This document shows, piece by piece, positions 36,832 to 45,003 of a DNA stretch of 64,000 nucleotides. Position 1 is the stretch's first letter. Every line of letters starts with the position of its first letter. This DNA comes from Candidatus Iainarchaeum sp. (lineage in GTDB: Archaea; Iainarchaeota; Iainarchaeia; Iainarchaeales; UBA10219). The notes beneath the pieces are model-generated. The model did not search any database. It was given only the letters and a program-made list of their open reading frames with translations, and had not been told where the DNA came from. Both the position numbers and the translations under genes were made by a program. The DNA is taken from the NCBI GenBank assembly GCA_018304425.1, contig JAGVWE010000002.1, positions 1 to 64,000 on the forward strand, written 5' to 3'.

Positions 36832-36990
36832 CTACCGCCCCGTCGAGCCACTTCGGGCGAAGACGGGGCACGCCTGCGATGTCAACGGCCCTGGAGGTGG
36901 CCGCCTAATCGGCTGGCGCCTCGGCAGCTGTGCGAGGCCGAAAGGCCGAGCCAGCCCGGTCGAGCCCCGCAGGGGGCGAAGACCGTGCAC
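36832..36990 (+). other. structured intergenic element, two related hairpins
   Basis: First hairpin: GCCCCGTC (36837-36844) with GACGGGGC (36862-36869), enclosing GAGCC...GGCGAA. Second: GGTC (36958-36961) with GACC (36981-36984), again enclosing GAGCC...GGCGAA. Both are followed by GATGTCAAC. The flanking stems differ but pair, which suggests selection on RNA structure. The first is similar to the hairpin at 16015-16041. Confidence 0.5.
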
Positions 36991-37013: not shown

Positions 37014-37087
37014 GAGCGGGTCGTCTAGCCTGGATAGGACAGATGCCTCCTAAGCATCAGATCGAGGGTTCAAATCCCTTCCCGCTC
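37014..37087 (+). tRNA. tRNA-Arg (anticodon CCT)
   Basis: Acceptor GAGCGGG/CCCGCTC, D-stem GTCT/GGAC, anticodon stem GATGC/GCATC around CTCCTAA (anticodon CCT), T-stem GAGGG/CCCTT with loop TTCAAAT. 74 bases, no intron, no encoded CCA. Confidence 0.95.
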
Positions 37088-37110
37088 GCTACGCCTTTTT
37101 ACAAAAGGTG

Positions 37111-37222: not shown

Positions 37223-38818
37223 GTGGGTAAAATCAGGGCACGGGCGTTACTGGTTTTTGTCACGTTGTTGGCGCTGGCTTGGATGGCTCAGGGAGCCTTG
37301 GCCGAGGAGGCCTCGTTGGCTGAAAGGCTGGGGTTCACGGCAACCGGTTTCGATTTCGCGAAAGTGGACCTGGTGCTCGCGGCCGGAATCCTCATCGTCT
37401 TGTGCGTGGTGTTGTATGCCGTGCTGGCCGTGTTCTTGAAGCCCCAGCAAGGCCAGTCCTATGAGGCGCCCCAGGAGTTGACCGTGGAAGGAATCACGGG
37501 AGGAGAGACAACGCCGCCCAGGGACGAGTCGAATCCCGTCATGAAATTCTATTATTCGTTGGAGGACGGCTGGTATAATTTCTTGGACGGCTTGAACCAG
37601 GTCATCCCCGTCTACAAAATCATCGACCCCATTGACCAGGTCATCCCGTCCTTTGCCTTGTTCTTGTTGCTCTTGTTGTTGCTGCTGGTTGGTGGCCTCT
37701 ACTGGGGCGGCGCCTTCAATGCTCCGGGCCCGGATGGAACCGGGGGCGGAGTGCTGTGGCCGGTCGTGGACTGGATGGGTTCTCTCCTGGGCTGGAAGAA
37801 GGCGGATGCCGCAGGCGTGCAGTTCCTGGTGAGCGACGAGCAGGCCAATCCCGTGGCGGGCGCGCAGGTCGCCGTGGCCTACGGCGAGCAGGCCGAGAGC
37901 TATTCCACCAACGAGTTCGGCGAGTTCTCCATGCCTGTTTACCAGGCTGAAATCTTTTTGGACGTCCAGGCCGAGGGCTTCGAGCGGTTCTCGGAAAACT
38001 ATTCGGTGAACCGGGAGGGCGTGAACCGGGTTTCCTTGAAGCGCGCGCCGCTCTACTTCGCGGAGAACCGCGTGCTGGAACTCGTCGACGAATTCGGGGC
38101 CAGGGTAACGGAGGCCGTGTTCGTGAGCTTTTCCTGCAGTGGCAGCTATAACGCGCCGGCCAGCCAGTCCACGACCACGGGCGAGGTCAGTGTCACGTAC
38201 ACCGGCAACTGCGGCACCCTGATGGCCAGCATCCGGGCGCAGGGCTTTGAAGACCAGACGGTGCTCATGAGCGGCTCGCGGACCGTGGCCGTGTTGAAGA
38301 AGAAGTCGGCCGACCGCTTGAATGGAAAGCTGAACGTCAAGCTGCTCGGCCCCCAAAGCGAGTCCATGACCGGCATGGAAATCCGGCTGTTTGACAACGA
38401 CAACATCTGGAAGAACACCGGGAAATCGGATGCTGCCGGCAGTTACTCGTTCACGGTCACGCCCGGCACCTATTACGTGCTGGTGCAGGACCTTGCAGGC
38501 AAATTTACGTCCACGCAAAGCAATAAGGTGCCGGTGGACGCAGGCGAAGAAGTCCTGGTGGAAGTCCGGATGAGCAAGGCCGGCACCGATGGAAGCGGAG
38601 GAGACGGGGGCGGAACCACGTGCGCCCCGGGCAAGACATTGTGCGCCAATGGGCAGTGTCAAACGAGTTGCGGGCCCGGGGTGTTGCCGGCCTGTCCAGC
38701 CGGGCAAAACCGGTGCGCGGACCGCACGTGCCAGGCGAGTTGCGGGCCTGGACCCATCAACTGCCCCACCGGCACCAACCTCTGCCAAAACGGGACCTGC
38801 AACGCCACCTGCCCCGTA
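37223..38818 (+). CDS. giant Cys-rich surface protein, segment 1 (N-terminus)
   Basis: First part of a gene that spans 37223-45003 in three frames. 532 residues: signal/membrane segment 10-27, further membrane segments about 50-73 and 145-170, then beta-rich carboxypeptidase-regulatory-like domains (VQFLVSDEQANPVAGAQVAV; LNVKLLGPQSESMTGMEIRL) and a Cys-rich repeat region with units such as CANGQCQTSCGPG and CADRTCQASCGPG. After GTA 38816-38818 the true frame continues one base later; this frame stays open as nonsense to 39502. Likely a membrane-anchored cell-surface protein. Confidence 0.75.
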
Positions 38819-38819
38819 A

Positions 38820-40112
38820 ACCGGCCAAAACCGATGCGCAGACTACTCCTGCCAGGCCGATTGCGGTTCGGGTCCAGGGGATGGCGGGGAGCCCCGGAAA
38901 GTGGAGTTGAAGCTCGTGGACTCGGGTTCGAGGGCGGGAATACAGGGCGTGAACGTGGACTTGTACTTGGAGGGCATCCAGTTGGTTTCGAACGCGCGCA
39001 CGAACTCGGAAGGCGGGGTCGTGTTCGCGAACGCGGACCGCGTGAAACCGTATTCCATCGTGGCAAGCGGGCACCCCAGTTACGTGATGAAGATCGTCAG
39101 CGGCATCCAATCGCAGTTGCTGAACGCCAATCCCATCGTCATCGAGTTGGAGAAGTTGACTCCCACCAATTCGGGGGAAGTCGCGGTCAAGGTGACGGAG
39201 TTGGGGGCGGGCAACGTCAAGCAAGCCGAAGTGTTCTTGTACAACAAGCTCTTGGCGGTGCCCATCGTGAGGGGCTTGACGGCGGACGACGGCAGCGCCT
39301 CGTTTCCGGGGTTGCCGGCGGGGACGTATTCTGCGATGGCGTCCAAGGGGTTGACGCAGGGAAGGAGCGCGGAAGGCACGTTGGCGGCCGGGAGCCGGCT
39401 GGAGTTGGCCGTGCAATTGGTGTTGATGGAGGGCGGCCTCAAGGCCCGGGTCAAGGACGCGCAAGGCAACGGGGTGCAGGCCGCGAAAGTCGAGTACTAT
39501 AACTTGTTGGACAACCGGAAGGTCGGCGAAGCCATCACGGATGTTACCGGCTTGACTCCTGAAGTCAAGCTGAAGATAAACGTCGTGCCCTATCTCGCGG
39601 TTTCAAAGACCGGCTTCTACACCAAGCGCACGGCGGAAACCGAGTTGACGCCGAATGTGACGAAAACCGTTGACGTGACCCTGTCCAGGGAGCAAGCCAT
39701 GGGCCCTTGTTCGCCGGGACAGGCCTTGTGTGCGAACGGCCAGTGCGCGAACAGTTGCGGGCCCGGGTCGAATCCATGTCAGGCCCCAAACAACCTGTGC
39801 TCGAATGGAACGTGTAGTTCGGCTTGCCCCGTGCCCCTCGACTGTCCAGTAGGGCAAAACCGGTGCGCGGACTTTTCGTGCCAGGCCAGCTGCGGGCCCG
39901 GCATCCATCCGGGGTGTCCTACGGGGCAAAGCATTTGCTTGGATGGTTCTTGCCAGGCCAATTGTGGGCCGGGGCCGTTGCCTTCCTGTCCAGTCGGGCA
40001 GGTCCGATGCAATGACCGCACGTGCCAGGCGAGTTGCGGGCCTGGACCCATCAACTGCCCCACCGGCACCAACCTCTGCCAAAACGGGACCTGCAACGCC
40101 ACCTGCCCCGTA
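38820..40112 (+). CDS. giant Cys-rich surface protein, segment 2 (after +1 shift)
   Basis: Continues segment 1 in the next frame, starting TGQNRCADYSCQADCGSGPG, then 250 residues of beta-sandwich-like domains (VELKLVDSGSRAGIQGVNVD; GLKARVKDAQGNGVQAAKVE) and a second Cys-rich block of about six units with the pattern CxxGxxxCxxxxCxxxCGPG. No start codon precedes it: the codon before 38820 in this frame is a stop. It ends at a second shift after GTA 40110-40112. Taken alone this is not a gene; it is the middle of the protein. Confidence 0.7.
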
Positions 40113-40113
40113 C

Positions 40114-43100
40114 TACTCCTGCCAAACCAACTGCGGACCCGGCAACCTCCCAACCTGCCCAACCGGCCAAAACCGATGCGCAGACTACTCCTGCCAGGCG
40201 AGCTGCGGCGTGGGGCCGTTGCCGCAGCCGGCCGGGGAAATCTCGGTCCGGTTGCAGGAAATCCTGGCAGAGGACTTGAAGTCCCAGGCCAGGGTGTTTG
40301 CGAAGAACACGGCGTACTGGTTGCGGTTCAGCGAAATCATTCCGAACGAGGACAACAAGCAGGTGCAGTCCGTGGTGCGGACTGGCCTGGAGAGCCAGGC
40401 GGACGCGGTTTCTTCGTTGATGGTGGTGCGGGATGCAAAGGCACCGGGCGTGAGCGTGGTGAAGTCGTCTTCGTTTGACCCCGCCAACAATTATGCGGAC
40501 AAGTCTGTGACGGCCGAGGACGCGAAGCAGGCCCGGTTCGGTTTTGGCGATGCCGGCAAGGGCGAGTACGAAGTCATGGTCAAGTCGTTCATTAAGAACA
40601 CTTCGGAGGCCAATGCCCCGGTCGAGATACGGTTTGGGACGAAGGCGGAAGTGAACGGTGTGCCGGTGGAAAAACCGGCGCCGGGCCAGTTGTACACGCG
40701 TTCCTACCGGCTGGGGGAACTCATTTCATGTGACCCCAATGACGTCGGCTGCACGAACTTCGTGTACGCGTTTTACTTGAGTGACCTGACCGGAAAGCAT
40801 TTTTCGGGGAAAATCCCCGTTTTGCCGGGGAAGAGCGTGGAAGTGTGGCAGGGCCTCACCTATTCCTTGGAGTACCGGATATTCAATGCCCACAAGCAGG
40901 GGAAGAGCCTGAGCAACTCCGTGTTGTCGTTCACGAACGCGGACCATGCCTTGGACGTGGTGCCGCCCTCCATTCCCCTGGCTTCCTTCGAGGTGGGCAC
41001 GAGTGTGAGCGGCAGCGTCAACTTCACGCCCAGGTCCGAGGCCGCCGTGACGAGCCTGGCCGTGTCCCTGAATTCAAGCGAGCCCGATTCAAGGGCTACT
41101 CTTTCGTTCAGCGTGCCGGGCAAGAAACAGTTTGCCGCCGTGCTTTACCCCAAGAAGCTGGTGGAAAACGTTCCGGCCAACGTCGTGCTGGAGGTAAGCG
41201 ATGCCGCGACCCGGGAGCGGGCGGCGAATGCCCTGGTCAAGGTTTCAACGGCCGAGGACTTGTCGAATCCCCTGGCGGCGGCCTTGACGGAAGCCGATGG
41301 CGTGGCCGTGTTCTCGGTGCCGGGCCTGCCGACGGGAAGCCGGTTGTTTGCCTCCGTTGAAAAGGAGTTTTACGCGAAAAAAACCGGTCTCGTGTGGGAA
41401 GTGCTGTCCGCGACCACCAGCTTTGTCCCGGATCCCTCCCTTAATTGCCTGAGTATCTCGCCCGCGAAGCTCTCGGTTCACCGCACGTTTGGCGGGGAGT
41501 TCTCGGTGAGTGCGAGGAACTGCGACGAGGAAGCCGAGTTGTTCGTGTATGAGACCGTGGCAGGAACCCCCTTGAAGCTCGTGAACAAGTCGGAGAGCGG
41601 GGCCCGGCTTTCCCTGACCACCGCGCCCAATGCGAGGCTGCCGAAGAATGGTTCCCTGTCCATTGGAGTCATGACCGAGGGCTCGACCTACCAGGGCGAC
41701 TACCTGGTGAACGTGCGCGCGCGGTTCGCCGGGCAGCAGGAGTTCCGGAACCTGGGACGCGTGGAGGTAACGGTGGGCACGAGCCAGGCCAGCGAGAGCT
41801 GTTATGGGTTGAGCAAGGCGTCCTTCGACATCTTCCACCGGCCGGATGACGCGGTCATCACGAACCGGTGCTTCCAGGCGGTGAACGATGCGTTCACGCC
41901 GAGGCTCACCCTATCGAGCCTCAAGGCCCTGTTGCAGCATGCCGGCCTCTCGAGCCTGGGCAAAATCGAGTTTTATTGGTCGGTGTCAAGGGCCAACCCG
42001 GATGGCTCCAGGGAAGTCATCGTGCCTGCCACGTATGCCGCGATTTCGCCGAAGGAAAACCGCCGCGTGGAGTTGGCGGACATCGAAAGCGAGTTGGACA
42101 GCCTGGTCATCGTGGACGTGGACGAAGGCGTGGACGTGGGAGAGGAAGCGGAAGACGAGGGGGGCGGGGAGGAAATGGAGCTCGAGGTCTTCAATACTTC
42201 GGGGGGTCTGGTGAGCACCGACCTGGAGGGCACCATCGTGGTGGCCGAGTACATTGGCGAAGACACGCAGCAGGACCCCTTGATTGAAGTGCAGGCGCTC
42301 AACAACGACTTGCGGGGCCTGGAGCCCGCCTTGTTGACGGTCACGGATTACGTGAAGGTCGCTGACCTCAAGCCCTTCACTGAGATGGGCTTCAAGTACA
42401 CGGTGACGGCGAGGGGCGAGGGCATCGACGTTGCGAAGATTTTCCTTGGAACCATTTCTGCGGACGGTGAGCGCCATGACCTGGGCGGCTTCAACGTGGA
42501 TGCCTTGGCGGGGTTGCAGGGCGTGACTTACACGGTTTCCAACGACCATGCCTGGGTGCAGACCTTGTTTGCGGGCACGCTGACGAACCAGACCACGAAC
42601 CCGGATGACCGGGTCATCGCGCGTTCGGCGGTGGACGTCTTGAAGAAGCGGGACGTGAGCGTGGCTCTTATTTATGACCCGACTTGGGGGCGGAAGTACC
42701 TGCGGCAGGTGTGCGACAACCTGGGGTCGGTTGGCAATGCGTTCGCGCAGGCCGGCTTCAACGTGGACGCCAAGTTGTATGCCATGGGCCGGAAAAGCAA
42801 GTACGTGAAGTGCGACCACGAACTGCTGACCTGGGCGGATGCCTCGAACACCGCGTATGACCGGGTGAGGGATGACGTGCGGGAGGCCTGGGGGGCTGCG
42901 GTGCAGGATTACTTGAAGCGGTTGGCGCCCTCGGATGACCGCCTGATATACGTATTCGTTTTGGCCAACAATGACCCGACCGGCACCGGTTTGGGGGCGA
43001 GGCTGCCGAAAATCACCGGCGTTTCGGCTCCGGAGAGAAAACGGTCGGACAACTGCCTTGCCAACCTGCGGCAGTATGCCGAGCAGGCCCAGCAACGGCA

Positions 43101-45003
43101 GCATTGTGCGGCGAACTGCAGCCAGTATAACCAGGATGGGGGAAGCAAGAGCAATGAGGGCAGCGGCTATGACCCCTGCCTGCAGTGCCGGTATGCCAAC
43201 TTCCAGTCCCAGGACCCGACTTGTACGAACCTCAGCTTGTCGCGCTGGAGGAAGGGAGGCGAGGAGGTGGTGGCGGAGAACGCCGCCAAGGCCGCCGCGG
43301 AAAAGGGGGCCCAGCTTTACTTCTTTTACCCACGCAAACTCGAACAGCGGTCGAGGAGGGCGTATGGGAGCCGGAAGGCGTTGGACGCCGTGGAAGTCAT
43401 GCAGTTGGCGGCTGACTTGTCCAAGGGCAAGGCCACGAGCATCAAGAACCTGGGCAACATCTCGGTCGACTTGGTGGACACGATCCGGGTCATCCAGAAG
43501 TCGTTGAACCCCACGGCCACGGAGACGTTCCACGTGCTGCTCAGGGCAGGGGACACGGACGTGTGCTATGGGCCCAACGACATCGAGGGCTTGACCGGCG
43601 AGAACGCGTTCCCGCGCGCCTTGTTTTCCTGGAATGCCGCGAAAATCCAGGCCGACACGTGCAGCAAGTCCAGCAACAAGGTTGCCTTCTGTGACGCGAG
43701 CCAGTTCAGCTTGTCGCTTATCAAGCGGTTGCTGCTGGTCCAGCAGTTGTACAAGGAAAAGAAGTACGATGACGTGGAAAACCTCTTGCACGACGAAGTG
43801 TACTTGAAGCCGGATGGTTACACGGCGGACCTGCTGTCCGACCTCGATGAGTACTTGCGGTCGCAGGCGTTCTTTGAGACGCCGAGCGGTTACCTGCAGT
43901 GGCTCAAGGAATACTTTTCGAGCCCGGGCAGGCTCGAGTTCGTTTCCGACAACCATTCCCTTACGCCGCTGCCCTCGGCTGGATTGTACCGCATGGACAT
44001 TTCCATTGAGTTCCCGCCGGGAAAACTGGGGCAGTTCATGGAATCGGATGAGCCGGTTGCGTTCATCACCGTGAAACTCAATGAAGTGGTGGGCATGCCG
44101 ACTTCGAACCTCTTCGAGCGGCTGCCCTTGGACGGCGCCATCGTTGAAACGAGCCGGGAAGGCTATGGGGTGAGCTATACGGGCGACCGGGTGCCCATCC
44201 GCTCGGATGAGGGAGTGGAGGCAAGACCCATTCCCGGCAGCGATAACCTGGCATTGGTGAGGGTAGCGCATCGGACGGACTTCGAGTACCTGAACAACGA
44301 GGCGCGGTCGTTCGTCTTCCACGCGAAGGACAACCTGGATGGAACCGTGGACTGGGTGTTCAGCCCGAGCCATGCCGCGCCCGCCTTGTTGAAGGTCGAG
44401 GGCCGGCCCGAGCGCGCGGAAGCATACTACAAGGTGGTGGACGCGCAGGGGGCAAGCGTGGACGTGGGCGCGTTTGGCTCGCTGTGGACGGGAATCGCGA
44501 GCAGCCTCTTCAATTGCGCTGACTTTTCGGGGAAGCGGGTGTTTTACAAGCGCGCGGACGCCCGGAACGCGGGTTGTGCCAAGGAGAAGAGTGGTTACAA
44601 TTACGGGTTCAGCTGGCTGCCAACGGGCGGGCAAGCGGTCTTGGATGCTGGCGCGGTTTACCTGCGCACGATTTTCTACACGCCGGTGGACCAGGTGTAC
44701 AGCGTCAAGAACGTGTGCGCGTCGGGTGAGCCCCTGATTGTTTCGACGGCGCAGACCCTGGACAACTTCGACGAATTCATTGGCTTGAAGCACAACCTGG
44801 AGGCAACCACGTTGAGCGACATGTTCGAGAAGGTGAAGGCGCGGAAGATGTGCTTGAAGGCGAGCGACAACGAGGTAAGGCTTTGGTGGAACGAGGACGA
44901 GTTGTACAAGGAACTGGCAGCGAATTACAACGATCACTTCGATTCCCTGGCCGAGGGCAACGCGGACTTCCAGGCGTGTGGCCCGGAAGCCGCGCAAAAG
45001 TAG
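40114..45003 (+). CDS. giant Cys-rich surface protein, segment 3 (C-terminus)
   Basis: About 1,629 residues after the second +1 shift, beginning YSCQTNCGPGNLPTCPTGQN with two more Cys-rich units, then a very long extracellular-looking part with several Ig-like or beta-rich domains (about 40,400-42,600), an acidic linker EEAEDEGGGEEMELE, and a region with a Rossmann-like sound (VALIYDPTWGRKYLRQVCDN). No C-terminal membrane anchor is visible. The whole protein would have about 2,590 residues. Such giant proteins in small archaea are thought to act in attachment; that role here is inference. Confidence 0.75.
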   Translation, partial: YSCQTNCGPGNLPTCPTGQNRCADYSCQASCGVGPLPQPAGEISVRLQEILAEDLKSQARVFAKNTAYWLRFSEIIPNEDNKQVQSVVRTGLESQADAVSSLMVVRDAKAPGVSVVKSSSFDPANNYADKSVTAEDAKQARFGFGDAGKGEYEVMVKSFIKNTSEANAPVEIRFGTKAEVNGVPVEKPAPGQLYTRSYRLGELISCDPNDVGCTNFVYAFYLSDLTGKHFSGKIPVLPGKSVEVWQGLTYSLEYRIFNAHKQGKSLSNSVLSFTNADHALDVVPPSIPLASFEVGTSVSGSVNFTPRSEAAVTSLAVSLNSSEPDSRATLSFSVPGKKQFAAVLYPKKLVENVPANVVLEVSDAATRERAANALVKVSTAEDLSNPLAAALTEADGVAVFSVPGLPTGSRLFASVEKEFYAKKTGLVWEVLSATTSFVPDPSLNCLSISPAKLSVHRTFGGEFSVSARNCDEEAELFVYETVAGTPLKLVNKSESGARLSLTTAPNARLPKNGSLSIGVMTEGSTYQGDYLVNVRARFAGQQEFRNLGRVEVTVGTSQASESCYGLSKASFDIFHRPDDAVITNRCFQAVNDAFTPRLTLSSLKALLQHAGLSSLGKIEFYWSVSRANPDGSREVIVPATYAAISPKENRRVELADIESELDSLVIVDVDEGVDVGEEAEDEGGGEEMELEVFNTSGGLVSTDLEGTIVVAEYIGEDTQQDPLIEVQALNNDLRGLEPALLTVTDYVKVADLKPFTEMGFKYTVTARGEGIDVAKIFLGTISADGERHDLGGFNVDALAGLQGVTYTVSNDHAWVQTLFAGTLTNQTTNPDDRVIARSAVDVLKKRDVSVALIYDPTWGRKYLRQVCDNLGSVGNAFAQAGFNVDAKLYAMGRKSKYVKCDHELLTWADASNTAYDRVRDDVREAWGAAVQDYLKRLAPSDDRLIYVFVLANNDPTGTGLGARLPKITGVSAPERKRSDNCLANLRQYAEQAQQRQHCAANCSQYNQDGGSKSNEGSGYDPCLQCRYANFQSQDPTCTNLSLSRWRKGGEEVVAENAAKAAAEKGAQLYFFYPRKLEQRSRRAYGSRKALDAVEVMQLAADLSKGKATSIKNLGNISVDLVDTIRVIQKSLNPTATETFHVLLRAGDTDVCYGPNDIEGLTGENAFPRALFSWNAAKIQADTCSKSSNKVAFCDASQFSLSLIKRLLLVQQLYKEKKYDDVENLLHDEVYLKPDGYTADLLSDLDEYLRSQAFFETPSGYLQWLKEYFSSPGRLEFVSDNHSLTPLPSAGLYRMDISIEFPPGKLGQFMESDEPVAFITVKLNEVVGMPTSNLFERLPLDGAIVETSREGYGVSYTGDRVPIRSDEGVEARPIPGSDNLALVRVAHRTDFEYLNNEARSFVFHAKDNLDGTVDWVFSPSHAAPALLKVEGRPERAEAYYKVVDAQGASVDVGAFGSLWTGIASSLFNCADFSGKRVFYKRADARNAGCAKEKSGYNYGFSWLPTGGQAVLDAGAVYLRTIFYTPVDQVYSVKNVCASGEPLIVSTAQTLDNFDEFIGLKHNLEATTLSDMFEKVKARKMCLKASDNEVRLWWNEDELYKELAANYNDHFDSLAEGNADFQACGPEAAQK

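Follow-up and report, generated by a model that had tools for sequence, protein, structure and literature searches.

Both frame breaks in the gene for a giant surface-type archaeal protein are probably assembly joints, formed where near-identical repeats were collapsed and mis-joined, and the gene would be intact in the organism.

Three consecutive frames encode one giant protein

The window analyzed here is a stretch of 64,000 nucleotides from Candidatus Iainarchaeum sp. (GCA_018304425.1, contig JAGVWE010000002.1, positions 1 to 64,000), which belongs to a genome assembly of 1.48 Mb in 7 contigs; an SSU rRNA model identified the organism as an archaeon. Three successive frames on the forward strand of positions 37223-45003 together encode one protein of 2,591 aa. 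Part 1 (37223..38818, frame 1 of 3) translates to 531 aa up to the first break and leads from N-terminal hydrophobic segments through carboxypeptidase-regulatory-like (Ig-type) domains to the start of a first Cys-rich array. Part 2 occupies the second frame (about 38820..40110; 430 aa) and contains more carboxypeptidase-regulatory-like domains, then a second Cys-rich array. Part 3, in the third frame (40111..45003), is a large C-terminal region of 1,630 aa without an internal stop that includes a conserved final domain at 43507-45000.

A codon-usage frame parser that was blind to the finding placed frame changes at 38815/38818 and 40101/40103. Translations and parser thus agree with an earlier note on this DNA, which had read the three frames as consecutive parts of a single, roughly 2,590-residue protein. 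Past the breaks, the old frames run on free of stops for 687 nt (break 1) and 377 nt (break 2), whereas at every other junction inspected between same-strand genes of the window the old frame closed within 93 nt; a stop-free run-on of hundreds of bases was seen only at these two same-strand frame changes of the window. When the parser was run over a 316-kb sample of the genome, including ten 20-kb stretches, it flagged break 1 and missed break 2, the array 2 segments being smaller than the size filter; parser support for break 2 therefore comes from the first (window) run only. The only other frame change flagged, at locus L061, seems to be a pair of ordinary small genes whose N-termini are pilin-like.

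PF13620 (CarboxypepD_reg) domains were detected in part 1 (1.2e-14, 54.8 bits) and part 2 (8.8e-13, 48.9 bits), against a Pfam cut-off of 32.3 bits, while a search of NCBIfam returned nothing above its cut-off. At the N-terminus, the hydrophobic segments, read from the sequence, precede the PF13620 domains, and membrane segments in this region probably anchor the protein. The C-terminal domain (43507-45000, forward strand) is conserved throughout the order and contains invariant Cys and Trp residues (alignment A1). Its structural model was of moderate confidence (pLDDT 78) and there was no credible sequence match or fold match in the PDB; this may be an undescribed domain. Upstream of the gene, at 36855-36990, we observed two similar 17-bp stretches (GGGCGAAGAC...) that lie 119 bp apart, just ahead of a tRNA-Arg gene (37014-37089); Rfam gave no match around these positions other than the tRNA.

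Relatives carry the same domains without the breaks

By sequence comparison, the window gene is placed in an order-wide family of giant proteins, one of which is intact and collinear with parts 1 to 3. This homolog, from a genome assembled in a single contig (G013; locus L024, 2257-8763), is a protein of 2,169 aa in one frame. Its residues 10-332 matched part 1, residues 335-598 matched part 2, and residues 614-1542 and 1545-2159 matched part 3, with the same domain order and approximately 29-33% identity. It differs from the window gene in that it is unbroken and lacks both Cys-rich linker arrays. This collinearity supports the earlier reading of the three parts as one surface-type protein.

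Six ORFs from relatives and two paralogs of this genome, eight homologs in all, pass from part 1 to part 2 in one frame, and seven of those eight also matched the first half of part 3. Since the homologs are continuous in one frame, both breaks sit at linkers where relatives are continuous. Relatives of part 3 were present in 49 of the 53 genomes tallied. The same genome also encodes two adjacent, intact giant paralogs on the reverse strand (L025, 3120-10250 and 10260-18269; 2,377 and 2,670 aa). Several relatives encode the giant protein in three ORFs that overlap at their ends (L026 1513-10277, reverse strand; L027 1713-9416 and L030 2590-11589, both forward), and these overlaps suggest coupled translation. 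This natural split lies in a different place from the window breaks, further downstream. The closest genomes compared are related at the order level only. Searches for a close relative sharing the arrays were negative: part 3 had no match in genome contigs, and the peptide CPTGQNRCADYSCQ matched neither genome contigs nor viral contigs.

The breaks interrupt Cys-rich units

The breaks fall within two Cys-rich arrays on the forward strand, delimited by cysteine spacing. Array 1 (38618..38880) contains three complete four-Cys units and one truncated at break 1, while array 2 (39711..40217) contains seven complete units and one truncated at break 2. Cysteines follow a 6-4-3 spacing in all units of both arrays but the one that immediately follows each break: after break 1 the first cysteine is missing, and after break 2 the first two. 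According to the earlier note, skipping one base resolves each break. This holds arithmetically, but the four-Cys unit remains truncated at both sites, so a one-base skip does not restore the protein. Because the units at the breaks are short of cysteines, each site has probably lost DNA whose length is 2 mod 3, which fits better than a one-base skip.

The Cys-rich linker arrays occurred in no other of the 75 genomes searched in the order, and both are lineage-specific insertions in linkers between domains. Within the same genome, two further giant genes carry long arrays of tandem four-Cys units of the same CPxGxxxCxDxxCxxxC type, one on C5 (L056 7890-18575, reverse strand) with an intact open frame of 3,562 codons, and one on C1 near 494-502 kb (L057 5710-14001, forward strand) with an intact open frame of at least 2,764 codons (2,818 on C1). 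In contrast to the window gene, their frames are intact, the GC skew of their arrays is mostly near zero, and the protein context is different.

Both breaks coincide with the edges of exact repeats

The same sequence, GCCACCTGCCCCGTA, stands ahead of each break, as the earlier note had reported, and it closes an exact 99-bp repeat on the forward strand (38720-38818 = 40014-40112). The right edge of copy 1 (38720..38818) is joint 1 and that of copy 2 (40014..40112) is joint 2, so that each break falls where an exact repeat ends. This pair is the longest exact repeat in the 316-kb genome sample. An exact 39-bp repeat follows on the same strand, beginning right at joint 1 in its first copy (38819..38857), while the second copy (40161..40199) is preceded by a 48-bp stretch (40113..40160) that is present at site 2 only, between the 99-bp and 39-bp repeats. 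These 48 bp and the 24 bp that open the 39-bp repeat add up to a unit of 72 bp, which is as long as a single array unit. Site 2 thus carries 48 bp more than site 1, which gives the same +1 offset at both joints.

From the point where the two arrays become identical it is exactly 99 bp to either left joint, and the right side of joint 1 lies exactly 39 bp ahead of the point where they diverge. The values 39 and 99 are usual k values in MEGAHIT or k-1 values in IDBA-UD. Three of the joint-to-divergence distances (99, 99 and 39) therefore resemble k-mer overlaps, whereas the fourth, 87 bp on the right side of joint 2, corresponds to no usual k, and the match was made post hoc.

The joint stretch is also unusual in composition. 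GC skew around the joints ranged from -0.40 to -0.49, the most negative values in the gene (mean +0.10, SD 0.16). In the C-rich joint stretch, G stands at the end of only 3 of 31 possible codons, whereas its share is 54% in the remaining array units and 56% elsewhere in the gene (binomial 7e-8 for the latter). The stretch did not stand out by overall codon likelihood. The joint stretch differs in history from its surroundings, through duplication, foreign origin or strain mixing. Origin from a foreign strain can form part of the assembly model set out below and is inseparable from it here.

Assembly collapse compared with real breaks

Collapse of repeats in assembly, one of the options raised in the earlier note, best fits the k-mer-like joint distances, the truncated units and an odd composition that is confined to the joints. 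It is also backed by the 316 kb of genome sampled, in which there were no other credible frame breaks, and by the relatives and two paralogs whose homologous positions are continuous in one frame. In this model, the two arrays would share an identical or near-identical C-rich stretch built on the 72-bp unit, of which the shared ends and approximately 1.5 units are present in the contig. A short-read assembler would fail to resolve the duplicated stretch, and contigs from both sites would end 99 bp into the shared sequence, where the first k-mer common to both is reached. These would then be joined to the next unique contigs with the shared middle left out, and the sequence lost at each site would measure 2 mod 3 and take with it one or two of a unit's cysteines. 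The genome contains no additional copy of the shared stretch, as expected if a short shared contig had been left out. Scaffolders normally put Ns at joins, and there are none at these joints, which argues against an artefact, as do the 87-bp distance at joint 2, the post hoc nature of the k-mer argument, and the other cysteine-rich genes of the same genome, which were assembled unbroken. For metagenome assemblies, local errors and wrong copy counts at repeats have been described, as have contig ends that overlap perfectly over about one k-mer length (PMC7111523). Under the assembly model, the giant gene would resemble these cases in its wrong joins at repeats, wrong repeat number, overlaps that may be of k-mer length and broken coding sequence, and it differs from them in having two N-free joints with a common left edge inside one gene.

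The main rival to an assembly artefact is real, repeat-mediated inactivation, which we consider unlikely. A frameshifting deletion would have arisen in one Cys array, and gene conversion would have carried it, along with the 99-bp stretch, to the other; a second small deletion would have followed, leaving a recent pseudogene or a gene for a truncated protein. Gene conversion could give the exact 99-bp and 39-bp identities between the arrays, the 48-bp difference between the sites is in frame, and the rest of the inspected sequence is clean, so base-level sequencing errors are rare. However, two deletions are needed, with a common left edge, different right edges and no useful shared bases at the edges, and the distances of exactly 99 and 39 bp are left unexplained. 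There is also no other decay in the 7.8 kb of the gene, and part 3 is open over 1,630 codons. It is improbable that the breaks are real and that several arrangements of the shared Cys-rich stretch exist in the population, switching or diversifying the giant surface protein.

The earlier note had further suggested on/off switching and recoding. Phase-variable switching by recombination between the repeats would draw on long identical direct repeats within one surface-type protein gene, but such an event deletes 1,294 bp if it joins the 99-bp copies and 1,342 bp if it joins the 39-bp copies. Because both lengths are 1 mod 3, one break always remains after recombination and neither repeat pair restores the frame; together with the lack of a tandem tract at the joints, this makes such a switch very improbable. 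Programmed +1 frameshifting, twice, at CCC-GTA would yield the full protein and could account for the same 15 bases ahead of both breaks and the same +1 shift needed at each. At site 1, however, slipping at CCC leads straight into a stop, since the codons in the +1 frame are GCC CCG TAA. The bases after GTA differ between the sites (A-ACC and C-TAC), re-pairing of tRNA-Val (GTA to TAA or TAC) is not expected at either, and read-through at site 1 still yields an incomplete, three-cysteine unit. Relatives have neither the CCC-GTA site nor a break there, given the 75 genomes without the array and the continuous homologs, and recoding is hardly credible.

Implications for the giant protein family

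If the breaks are assembly artefacts, gene models built on this assembly are wrong. Comparing the joint-to-divergence distance with k-mer lengths would offer a cheap check on other claims of broken repeat genes made without reads. Were the breaks real, they would be a rare example of repeats linked to the inactivation or variation of a giant surface protein in an archaeon. If they are artefacts, the gene should be read as unbroken, encoding a single giant protein whose two Cys-rich linkers are specific to the lineage.
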